Shown piece by piece: positions 11,919 to 56,756 of a DNA stretch of 64,000 bases. The stretch spans positions 62,001-126,000 of the forward strand of contig NZ_JACBGE010000007.1 of assembly GCF_021401345.1 (NCBI RefSeq). Reading direction: 5' to 3'. This DNA is from Hydrogenophaga sp. NFH-34. GTDB lineage: Bacteria; Pseudomonadota; Gammaproteobacteria; Burkholderiales; Burkholderiaceae_C. The notes under the pieces were generated by a model. It worked only from the letters and a program-made list of their open reading frames with translations. It did no database searches and was not told the origin of the DNA. Numbering within the stretch: position 1 is the stretch's first letter; each line of letters begins with the position of its first letter. The translations under genes and the position numbers were made by a program.

Positions 11919-14900
11919 ATGCCTCGCCGCATCGACCGACTGCCTTTTCCCTACCGGCCCGAAGCCGAGACCGTGGCCCAGCGCCTGGCTGCCTTGCAGG
12001 GGGCGCTGGACTGGGCGGCGGCGGCCCAGGCGGCCGCGCCCTGGGTGCGGGCGGTGCGCGAGAACCCGCCGCCTTTCTGGGCCATGGAAAGCCTGCTCAA
12101 GGAGTACCCGATCTCCAGCGCCGAAGGGCTGGCGCTGATGCGCCTGGCCGAGGCGCTGCTGCGGGTACCCGATGTCGAAACCGCCATCGCGCTGACCGCA
12201 GATCAACTGGGCCGGGCGGATTTCGACGGTGCGGCGCACGCCACCGCCGGGCCGGCCCCTGTTGGCGCGGGCCTTCTTGGGCAGCCTGGCGAAACCAGGG
12301 GAGGGGGGCAGGTCTCGGCGCTGGCGCGGCTCTCGTCCAGCGCCATCGCCTTGTCCAAACACTTCCTGCCCGAGTCCGGCCACGAACCCGGCCTGATGGC
12401 CAAGCTGGGCGCGCGTACCGTGGTGGCGGCCACGCTGCGGGCCGTGCAGTTGCTGGGCCGGCAGTTCGTGCTGGGCCAGACCATCGCCGAGGGCATGAAG
12501 GAGGCCGCGGCTGCGCGCAAGAATCAGGCAAACCTGCGGGTGCTGCCGGGCCGTGCCAAGGCGGAACAGTCGTTTGCGGGGAGCAGCGACCCACGCACCG
12601 GTGGCGCAGGGGGGCTCTGGTTCAGCTACGACATGCTGGGAGAAGGCGCGCGCACCGCGGCCGACGCGCTGCGCTACCAGGCCAGTTACGCGGACGCCAT
12701 CGCGGCGATCGCGAAGGGGGCCGATCCCGCACGCCATCCGTCGCAGAACGACGGCATCTCGATCAAGCTCAGCGCCTTGCACCCCCGCTATGAAGACGCG
12801 CAACACGGTCGCGTGATGGCCGAATTGGTGCCGCGCGTGTGGTCCTTGTGCCAGGCTGCGGCTGCGGCCAACCTCAACCTGACCATCGACGCCGAAGAGG
12901 TCGACCGGCTCGAACTGTCGCTGGAGGTGTTCGAGGCGCTGGCGGCGCGTGTGGCCCAATACTGCCCGCAGTGGCCTGGCCTGGGCCTGGCGATGCAGGC
13001 TTACCAGACGCGTGCGGTGGAGCTGATTGATCACGTGGCTTCGCTGGCCCGGCAATACCGGATCCGCTTCATGTGCCGGCTGGTCAAGGGAGCCTATTGG
13101 GACGCCGAGATCAAGCGCGCGCAGGAACAGGGTTTGCCGGCCTATCCGGTGTTCACCCACAAGCACCACACCGATGTGAGCTACCTGGCGTGCGCCCAGG
13201 CACTGCTGGGGGCTCCCGACGCGATTTTTCCGCAGTTCGCCACCCACAACGCCGGCACCATCGCGGCCATCCTGCAAATGGCCTCGCGCAAAGGGGTGCC
13301 GTTCGAACTGCAGCGCCTGCACGGCATGGGCGAAGGCATCTACCGCGAGGTCCTCAAGAACCCGCTGGTGAGCTGTCGCGTCTACGCCCCGGTGGGTGCG
13401 CACCGCGACCTGCTGGCCTACCTGGTGCGGCGCCTGCTGGAGAACGGCGCCAACTCGTCTTTCGTGCACCAGTTGGCCGACGAGTCGGTGGGCATGGACG
13501 AACTGCTGATCTCGCCGCTGCGGCTGGAGCCGGACGGTTCACTGCCGCTGCCGCCGGAGCTGTACGGTGCGGCGCGGGCCAACAGCAGTGGCCGCGACCT
13601 GGCCGTGGTCGTCCAGCGCGACGAACTGCTGGCGGCGCACGCGGCCTGCACCGTGCCTGTGGTGCCTGAGGCCCAGGCCGATCAGGCAGCCGACGCGGTG
13701 GCGCGTGCCATCAGCGCCTTCGCGGCCTGGAACCACACGCCGGTGGCGCAGCGTGCGGCCATGCTGCGCTTCGCCGCCGACACGCTGGACGCCGCGCTGC
13801 CGCGCTTTGGCGCCCTGCTGGTGAAGGAGGCGCACAAGACCTGGGGCGACGCCGTGTCCGAGGTGCGCGAGGCGGTGGACTTTCTGCGCTACTACGCCAA
13901 CGAGGCCGAGCGTGTGATGGCGCCACAGACCTTGCCAGGCCCCACGGGCGAGAGCAATACGCTGCGCCTCGAAGGCCGCGGCGCCTGGGTCTGCATCAGC
14001 CCCTGGAACTTCCCGCTGGCCATCTTCATGGGGCAGGTCGCGGCCGCGCTGGCCACGGGCAACACCGTGCTGGCCAAGCCGGCCGAGCAGACGCCGGCGG
14101 TGGCGCTCGAAGCCGTCAAACTGCTGCACGCCGCCGGCATCCCGCCAGACGCGCTGCAGCTGTTGCATGGCCCGGGCGAGACGGTGGGCGCCGCGCTGGT
14201 GGCCGCGCCCGGCGTGGCCGGCGTGGTGTTCACCGGCTCCACCCAGGTGGCCAAGCTCATCCAGCGCGCGCTTGCCGCGAAAGACGGCCCTATCGTGCCG
14301 CTGATCGCCGAAACCGGCGGCATCAACGCCATGCTGGTCGACAGCACGGCCCTGCCCGAGCAGGTGGCCGACGCGGTGGTGCAGAGCGCCTTCCGCAGTG
14401 CCGGGCAACGCTGCTCGGCGCTGCGCCTGCTGTGCGTGCACGAGGCGATCGCCGACGGCGTGATCGAGATGATCCAGGGCGCGGCGAAGGAACTCGTGGC
14501 CGGCGATCCGTCGCAGTTGGCGACCGACCTTGGGCCGGTGATCGATGCCGAGGCCTTCGACAACATCCAGCGCCACCTGCTCCGTCTCCACGGAAGCGCC
14601 CAGGCGCTGCTGCCCAGTACCGATGCGGTGCCTGTGCTGCCCAATTTGGTTGCGCCCCAGATGTTTGAAGTGAACGCCATTGCCGACGTGACCGCTGAAA
14701 TCTTCGGCCCGGTGCTGCAGGTGGTGCGCTGGCGCGGTGAGCCGATGGACGTGATCCGCCAGATCAACGCGCTGGGCTATGGCCTGACGCTGGGCATCCA
14801 GACCCGCATCGACAGCCGCGCGCAGGCGCTGGCCGCGGCGGCGCGGGTGGGCAACGTTTATGTCAACCGCAACATGATCGGCGCCGTGGTGGGCGTTCAG

Positions 14901-55282: not shown

Positions 55283-55364
55283 AAAGGGTATCACGCCAAT
55301 TCCCTTGCCGGATGGCCGGGTTGCCCCGATCATGCGGGCCACAAGAACACCCACGGAGACAAGC

Positions 55365-56756
55365 ATGCACCCTGCCAGCGGGCCCGACGCCCTGCACTGG
55401 GAAGCCGGCGGCACCAGCCGCATCCCGTTTGCCGTCTATACCGACGAGCAGCGCCACCGGCGCGAACTCGATCGCTTCTTCTACCAGGGCCACTGGTGCT
55501 ACGTTGGCCTGGAAGCCGAGATCCCGAACGCCGGTGACTTCAAGCGCACCGCAGTCGGCGAGCGATCGGTCATCATGACCCGCGCCGCCGACGGGCACGT
55601 CCACGTGGTGGAGAACGTCTGCGCCCACCGTGGCATGCGTTTCTGCCGCGAACGCCACGGCAACAAGACCGAATTCGTCTGTCCCTACCACCAGTGGAGC
55701 TACACGCCCGACGGCACGCTGCAGGGCGTGCCGTTCCGGCGCGGCGTGCGCCAGGACGGCAAGGTCAACGGCGGCATGCCGGCCGATTTCAATCCCAAGG
55801 ACCACGGCCTGACGCGGCTCAAGGTCGCCGTGCGCGGTGGGGTGGTGTTCGCCAGCTTCGACCACAACGTCGAATCGCTGGAAGACTACATGGGGCCGAC
55901 CATCCTCACCTACTTCGACCGCCTGTTCAACGGCCGCAAGCTCACCATCCTGGGCTACAACCGCCAGCGCATCCCCGGCAACTGGAAGCTGATGCAGGAG
56001 AACATCAAGGACCCGTACCACCCCGGCCTGCTGCACACCTGGTTCGTCACCTTCGGGCTCTGGCGCGCCGACAACAAGAGCGAGCTGCGCATGGACGCGC
56101 ACCACCGCCACGCGGCCATGGTCTCCACCCGCGGCAGCATGGGCCAGGCCAGCGGCCAGGCGGCGCAGGTGACGCAGGTGTCCAGTTTCAAGGAGACGAT
56201 GCAACTGGAAGACCCGCGCTTCCTGGACATCGTGCCCGAGCCCTGGTGGCAGTTGGGGGGGCAAGAACCAGCGCCGCCGGGCCGCCCCAAGGCGCCGGTC
56301 GCCCCCTCGGGGGGCAGCGAAGGACACGAAGTGCCGAGTGTGGGGGTTCAAGTTCCCACGGCGGTCATGACGACCCTGTTCCCCAGCGTCATCTTCCAGC
56401 AGCAGGTCAACAGCGTGAGCACGCGCCACATCCAGCCCGATGGGCATGGCGCGTTCGATTTCGTCTGGACCCACTTCGGCTTCGAGGACGACACGGAAGA
56501 GATGACGCAGCGCCGTCTGCGCCAGGCCAACCTGTTCGGCCCGGCCGGCTTTGTCAGCGCCGACGACGGCGAGGTGATCGAGTTCTCGCAACAAGCCTTC
56601 GACAGCAAGCCGCAGCACCGCGCGCTGGCCGAACTGGGCGGGCGCGAGGTGGGCGAAACGGATCACATGGTGACCGAGACACTGATCCGCGGCATGTATG
56701 AGTACTGGCGGAAAGTCATGGAAGCTCCGGAAAAGAGCGATGGAGGTGCCGCATGA
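55365..56756 (+). CDS. nagG: Salicylate 5-hydroxylase-like large subunit (Rieske oxygenase alpha)
   Basis: The 463-residue oxygenase component hydroxylates an aromatic acid at a mononuclear iron. The Rieske site is C86-A-H88...C106-P-Y-H109. The iron site is in DPYHPGLLH (H219, H224) with a later Asp. Long identical stretches match NagG-type salicylate 5-hydroxylase, which makes gentisate. Residues of about 296-330 (between EPWW and PTAVMTT) form a Gly/Pro-rich segment encoded by repeat-like DNA that I do not expect in the family. The ATG at 55365 follows a GGAGAC. It overlaps the beta gene by four bases. Confidence 0.85.
56276..56347. repeat. Repeat-derived in-frame insertion inside the oxygenase alpha gene
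   Basis: The segment opens GCCGGGCCGCCCCAAGGCG, has a palindromic core CCCCCTCGGGGGG, then CAGCGA, CACGAAGTG and a final GTGGGGG. It lines up block by block with the second putA element (12545-12616). In the protein it lies within the extra residues of about 296-330. The whole apparent insertion (56250-56354) is 105 bases, a multiple of three, so the frame is kept. Confidence 0.6.

Follow-up and report, generated by a model that had tools for sequence, protein, structure and literature searches.

A short hairpin-rich repeat family of Hydrogenophaga found in frame in nagG and other conserved genes

The nagG-type gene of Hydrogenophaga sp. NFH-34 raises the question of why 35 residues separate EPWW from PTAVMTT in its product, when the nearest Hydrogenophaga orthologues have 6 residues (QLGEQM type) and many others have 2 (GG type, EPWWGGPTAV) at the same site. 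The gene lies in a stretch of 64,000 nucleotides, here called the window. A preliminary description of this DNA had proposed that a palindromic repeat was inserted in frame in a Rieske oxygenase gene, adding about 35 residues or 105 bases. Here, we show that the frame 55305-56756 stays open through the extra stretch and that copies of the repeat share a family stem, which bears out the proposed insertion. The figure of 35 residues describes the whole EPWW–PTAV interval but overstates the net gain, which is 29 residues (87 bases) over the nearest orthologues and 33 residues over those of the GG type. The finding stands and is broader than was first supposed: the stretch belongs, as one copy among many, to a repeat family that Hydrogenophaga shares with some of its relatives.

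The element in nagG and the plan of the repeat

The features of the window that concern us are as follows.

55305..56756, + strand: nagG-type gene, salicylate 5-hydroxylase large (alpha) subunit, with Rieske and Ring_hydroxyl_A domains; frame open through the insert
56250..56354, + strand: EPWW-to-PTAVMTT stretch of 35 codons, the finding of the preliminary description
56262..56265, + strand: CAAG, left copy of a possible target-site duplication (4 bases; weak)
56266..56347, + strand: palindromic repeat element of 82 bases, in frame in nagG; matched by the covariance model across all of its 81 positions (E 8.8e-12 in the window)
56267..56275, + strand: left arm of hairpin 1, ACCAGCGCC; paired with the right arm at 8 of 9 positions
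56276..56290, + strand: loop of hairpin 1, GCCGGGCCGCCCCAA, near-invariant, 15 bases
56291..56299, + strand: right arm of hairpin 1, GGCGCCGGT
56301..56315, + strand: hairpin 2, GCCCCCTCGGGGGGC, read as APSGG
56325..56333, + strand: hairpin 3, CACGAAGTG, a weak 3-base stem (by eye)
56340..56347, + strand: tail, GTGGGGGT, the conserved right end of the element
56349..56352, + strand: CAAG, right copy of the possible target-site duplication (4 bases; weak)
12538..12615, + strand: second, decayed-looking copy, in frame in putA (LPGRAKAEQ...GSSDPRTGGAGG) just before FSYDMLGE; peptide read by eye

The nagG product has the Rieske and catalytic domains of a salicylate 5-hydroxylase large subunit, and its closest solved chain is a salicylate 5-hydroxylase (7c8z_A, E 2.8e-216); every NCBIfam equivalog that it matched scored below its cut-off. 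The alignment with 7c8z_A falls into two matched stretches, one on either side of the insert, and places the insertion site between W316 and P319 of that chain. This alignment was used in place of an AlphaFold2 model of the loop, which was dropped at a mean pLDDT of 45.8 (41 close orthologues). The putA copy has an E of 0.00069 in the window and 0.056 in the whole genome, and the PutA assignment comes from NF008869.

Across copies, the unit consists of hairpin 1 (loop GCCGGGCCGCCCCAA between variable arms), hairpin 2 (GCCCCCTCGGGGGGC), a weaker hairpin 3 that comes in two sequence types (by eye), and a tail, GTGGGGGC. It is not the single 72-base sequence that had been proposed. In this genome and in the complete congener genome G025, matches are mostly 80-84 bases long, with a class of 71-77 bases that has the same plan (by eye) and some of 93-110 bases; tandem arrays also exist, one of which, at C44, has a period of 84.

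The arms of hairpin 1 vary among copies yet compensate for each other. In the 28 distinct arm pairs from all 35 aligned copies, 199 of 224 positions pair, against 138.2 (sd 5.9) in shuffles. A covariation test on 32 of the 35 rows (31 distinct) gave 87.5% paired cells, 72 double-change cells and a covariation score of 0.686, where shuffles gave 60.0%, 21.2 and 0.210 respectively; one of the three omitted rows, L055 (one-base shift, 3/8 paired), counts against the stem. Sliding the arm alignments reduced pairing to 27-43%. Folding of the nagG copy as a single sequence gave a stability no greater than that of its own shuffles (z -0.03). In the 35-copy alignment we saw by eye no terminal inverted repeats, the left arm being variable and the right end being GTGGGGGC, and the same alignment has no conserved GTAG or CGTC tetranucleotide at a palindrome end. 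Copying of the variable arms from the target site was considered and dropped, as the arms are unlike the empty sites (by eye).

The preliminary description had also considered that the segment might be unique in the genome, or that its 35 residues might be common to orthologues. Neither is so. The insert is present in 8 of 107 NagG rows (99 different), and BLAST of this genome gave at least 49 matches to the nagG repeat, with 40 of 99 candidates scored. A covariance model built from 35 copies found at least 78 matches at E<=0.1 and at least 62 at E<=1e-3 in the 5.18 Mb genome, counts that are lower bounds as 150 of 9780 candidates were scored; G025 has at least 85 matches at E<=1e-4 (150 of 10366 candidates scored). 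With up to 39 candidates scored per genome, at least one match was found in 74 of 118 relatives, namely 67/67 of the same genus, 3/3 of the same family and 4/48 of the same order.

Copies inside genes and between them

To place the copies relative to genes, a codon-usage model trained on 37 frames of the window was applied to 240 bases on each side of 69 of the 78 model matches in this genome, those with E above 0.0079 (the 9 weakest) being left out. The genome scan that had been proposed places 19 of 69 copies in frame inside open frames, 17 of them with E<=1e-3. A further 17 are of the same-strand junction type, in which the coding flanks differ in frame or are separated by a stop, and 33 lie elsewhere. 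Among 84 of the 85 copies of G025 (3960699 was left out), 13 are in frame inside genes and 38 are at same-strand gene junctions. No clear frame-broken gene was seen among the 69 classified places of this genome.

According to family models, the in-frame genes of this genome include cobyric acid synthase (cobQ), RadA, HypD, RecJ, HrpA, RsmG, LigA, RecQ, the sulfate adenylyltransferase large subunit (cysN), glyoxylate carboligase, bifunctional salicylyl-CoA 5-hydroxylase and an RND permease, and those of G025 include UvrA twice, XdhA twice, GlnE, CobQ, biotin carboxylase and acyl-CoA dehydrogenases, among others in both genomes. Several family-model matches span the insert as one stretch. Some of the invaded genes are usually essential. 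We also observed that many in-frame targets (ligA, recJ, radA, recQ, hrpA, uvrA) are DNA repair or nucleic-acid genes.

Orthologues with empty sites were compared for four genes (ligA, recJ, cobQ and nagG) and one junction; for the remaining in-frame cases the evidence is the match to the repeat, the codon test of the flanks and the family models. For ligA, 20 genomes were searched and 18 of the 19 with a match are empty, the insert being found in G054 alone. For recJ, all 19 genomes with a match are without the insert, and one has a different 8-residue stretch. For nagG, 96 of 107 gene rows (99 different) are empty, 8 have the insert and 3 have a possible remnant. For cobQ, 14 of 19 genomes with a match are empty and 5 carry the element. 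It is in the sense orientation in the window's genome and antisense in the 5 others, one of which has two copies in tandem. The cobQ copy of the window's genome is preceded by 10 further residues, so the insertion point can be assigned to the same loop but not proven to be the same base. The opposite orientations are most simply explained by separate insertions, a later inversion being conceivable. We noted that the empty cobQ genes (L234-L248) are not all alike at the insertion point, where 5 residues set them apart (VVAGPGGALGEIG versus VVDGGEIG), possibly as a footprint.

We consider it very probable that these copies belong to a family of short, non-autonomous, hairpin-rich mobile repeats whose in-gene members keep the reading frame, mostly with hairpin 2 in one frame per strand. 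Most copies lie outside genes or at gene junctions, and in this explanation copies inside genes would survive when the frame is kept and, mostly (27/31, see below), when hairpin 2 is read in that one frame.

The prominence of junctions invites another reading, that the element is primarily a structured RNA or DNA site selected between genes, as a terminator, mRNA stabiliser or protein-binding site, and that the in-gene copies are accidental. Junctions hold 17/69 places here and 38/84 in G025, and the stems covary strongly. In 14 of the 17 junction places here the end of the upstream stop falls in the span from 24 bases before the element start to 4 bases past it, and in 10 it falls within 5 bases of the element. 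In two others the upstream stop is about 90 bases ahead, with a tandem partner in between, and at C71:80877, upstream of hypD, the upstream frame crosses the element and stops just beyond it; G025 has seven same-strand cases with the upstream frame running into or beyond the element. On the other hand, when 8 loci were compared with Rfam at E values up to 1, the only matches were RNase P and a weak asX3, neither overlapping a copy. Moreover, the stem is also present in in-gene copies and persists there from one species to another: in the nagG copies the hairpin 1 arms pair at 67/72 positions against 53.7 in shuffles (2/5000 as high; 9 rows, one being a copy beside nagG rather than an insert). 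We regard a primary role between genes as possible but less likely than not; it is in any case compatible with the mobile-repeat explanation rather than opposed to it.

Template switching between palindrome arms during replication can turn imperfect palindromes into perfect ones, and the stems could have been kept paired in this way without selection. In favour of this, in-gene stems pair just as those outside genes do, although the loop is nearly invariant. The strong conservation of the loop and of hairpin 2 is left unexplained, and we view this account of the stems as somewhat doubtful.

Reading frame, mobility and the age of the nagG copy

The in-frame copies are biased in how hairpin 2 is read. 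One frame is used in 17 of 21 sense copies and in 10 of 10 antisense copies (27/31 together), with binomial tails of 1.4e-5 and 2.9e-5 respectively, copies sharing a gene family or genome being not fully independent. Of 153 places, 8 showed no recognisable hairpin 2 and are not in the count, rsmG being the one in-frame case among them, and the short class supplies three of the four sense exceptions. The other frames are mostly open as well: of the 114 copies outside the in-frame class, 82-86% have a given frame open in sense and 65-96% in antisense. The peptides read from hairpin 2 are APSGGS in sense and SLPPEGA in antisense. By eye, at least two frames are in use over the loop of hairpin 1 (AGPPQ, PGRPK) and three over the tail (SVG, AWG, ERGG), so that the hairpin 2 peptide is the fixed part.

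The bias could instead reflect a target choice that depends on codon phase, with no selection on the peptide. By reasoning alone, insertion in high-GC genes could favour one codon phase. This is improbable, since the frame of hairpin 2 is mostly constant but those of the hairpin 1 loop and of the tail vary, and neither end of the element therefore fixes the phase.

The insert would be translated as a peptide of about 25 to 30 amino acids, which would form a small Gly/Ser/Pro/Ala-rich loop, probably disordered, with the protein fold kept around it and a near-neutral effect on the enzyme. In two nagG pairs the insert has dN/dS values of 0.45 and 0.49, on 6 and 7 differing codons, against 0.04-0.12 in four flank comparisons. 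Its dS is 0.12-0.14 against 0.23-0.50 in the flanks (few codons), and constraint may act at the DNA level too. A bolder proposal is that the element is adapted for translation, with hairpin 2 encoding, in one frame on each strand, a benign flexible peptide that enables gene invasion; together with a putative transposase, it would be a natural machine for inserting loops. We put this forward as speculation that is rather unlikely to hold.

Evidence for movement comes from the ends of the copies. At C55:127890, comparison with G049 and G063, relatives whose site is empty, shows CATGAC doubled around the element. Over 45 non-tandem copies, the direct repeats at the two ends have a mean length of 3.76 bases against 3.21 in shuffles (0/400 shuffles reach it). 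Most of this signal is carried by 11 junction copies (0/400 shuffles), and the end repeats of 19 in-frame copies (22/400) and of 15 others (48/400) are not clearly above chance. Short direct repeats of this kind fit a mobile, non-autonomous element, which would be moved in trans by a putative transposase with a target duplication of 4-6 bases. We found no transposase for it: this genome's one Y1_Tnp (PF01797) gene, a 276-aa frame, has no copy in its 3.3 kb locus. As a candidate mover of the RAYT-mobilised REP/REPIN type the Y1 transposase failed, the repeats not flanking the gene in the one genome tested. The hypC/hypD junction was unusable for the duplication test, its spacer being variable.

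How long has the copy been in nagG? On a protein tree of 107 NagG rows (99 different; insert columns removed), the 8 insert rows need 7 changes with remnants excluded, or 8 when 3 remnant rows count as inserts, on what is a quick tree with 43 of 96 inner branches under 80 that left out L037 (a paralogue) and L089 and L059 (duplicates). One recent insertion at nagG is rejected by these 7-8 changes. The Pseudacidovorax insert row is sister to an empty Pseudacidovorax (SH-aLRT 100). Fresh independent insertions fit poorly, since insert identity tracks flank identity: the window's nagG is 93.3% identical to that of G059 in the insert and 93.6 and 91.9% in the flanks. The nagG copy is thus old, or arrived with its gene. 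It is not new: a gain long ago followed by several losses would fit, and so would transfer along with the gene.

Three Acidovorax genes (L105, L108, L110) have a longer loop at the NagG site in which the repeat is not intact, and these loops may be remnants. An ordinary lineage-specific Rieske oxygenase loop that grew without any mobile element, through slippage during the replication of GC-rich DNA, could draw on those genes and on the site's tolerance of length change (2 or 6 residues in empty orthologues), but is refuted by the genome-wide copies (at least 62 at E<=1e-3) and by 18 other in-frame gene places in this genome, and is extremely improbable.

Relation to known elements

The preliminary description had suggested a Comamonadaceae counterpart of the palindromic elements of Rickettsia (RPEs), and the in-frame copies with empty orthologues support it. 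RPEs are 105-146 bp long with 12 bp terminal inverted repeats, and are reported in 19 frames, with a tested guanylate kinase (PMC2229807). Like the present repeat, they are described there as small palindromic repeats in frame in conserved protein genes, where the peptide is tolerated, and as intergenic too (PMC2229807). In-frame insertion in conserved genes with empty orthologues is found here for four genes. In contrast to that description of RPEs, the Hydrogenophaga repeat is mostly 80-84 or 71-77 bases long and GC-rich, is built of successive hairpins and shows no terminal inverted repeat. Its host is a free-living betaproteobacterium, whereas Rickettsia is obligate intracellular.

The further claim that such elements are known only from Rickettsia does not hold, since a published account of GTAG- and CGTC-type REPs places them inside genes in Opitutus, Xanthomonas, Thauera, R. 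conorii and others (PMC3733652). By that account, intragenic REPs are often in DNA repair genes, and two Xanthomonas recB genes were hit at about the same site (PMC3733652). The Hydrogenophaga family resembles them in being intragenic hairpin repeats with DNA repair genes among the targets, but these REPs are 20-40 bp units with a tag (PMC3733652), and the Hydrogenophaga consensus is without one. RU-1/ERIC of enterobacteria and NEMIS of Neisseria are likewise small mobile repeats whose open frames are fused in frame to genes, but they have terminal inverted repeats according to the RPE paper (PMC2229807), and none was seen here. When compared with a MITE, the Hydrogenophaga repeat lacks terminal inverted repeats (by eye), and the picture for target-site duplication is mixed: clear at one site with empty relatives (CATGAC), above shuffles in the 45 non-tandem copies and in the 11 junction copies, and not clearly so in the 19 in-frame and 15 other copies.

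The kind of element is already known; the literature searched, which largely lacked subscription papers, yielded no description of this repeat family, its host group, its covarying plan or its one-frame bias. The Hydrogenophaga copies offer a large number of naturally replicated insertions that keep the frame of conserved genes and for which orthologues without the insert exist, in bacteria that live freely and can be cultured, and the occurrence of both orientations in one gene (cobQ) is part of their value. Translation of the peptide, its cost to the enzyme and the mover of the repeat become testable outside the obligate intracellular Rickettsia, and the bias for one frame per strand opens selection for harmless peptide inserts to measurement. 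Annotation of the genus should allow for loops of this sort in LigA, RecJ, RadA, UvrA, CobQ and NagG.

We would like to point out two further observations. Just 5' of hypD (L041:2378-2458), the element lengthens the upstream reading frame, and the copy upstream of hypD is present in the relatives G025 and G063 too (L260, L261); the element may also create new protein ends. In G025, xdhA (L298:679-2769) and uvrA (L276:965-3079) have two separate in-frame copies apiece.
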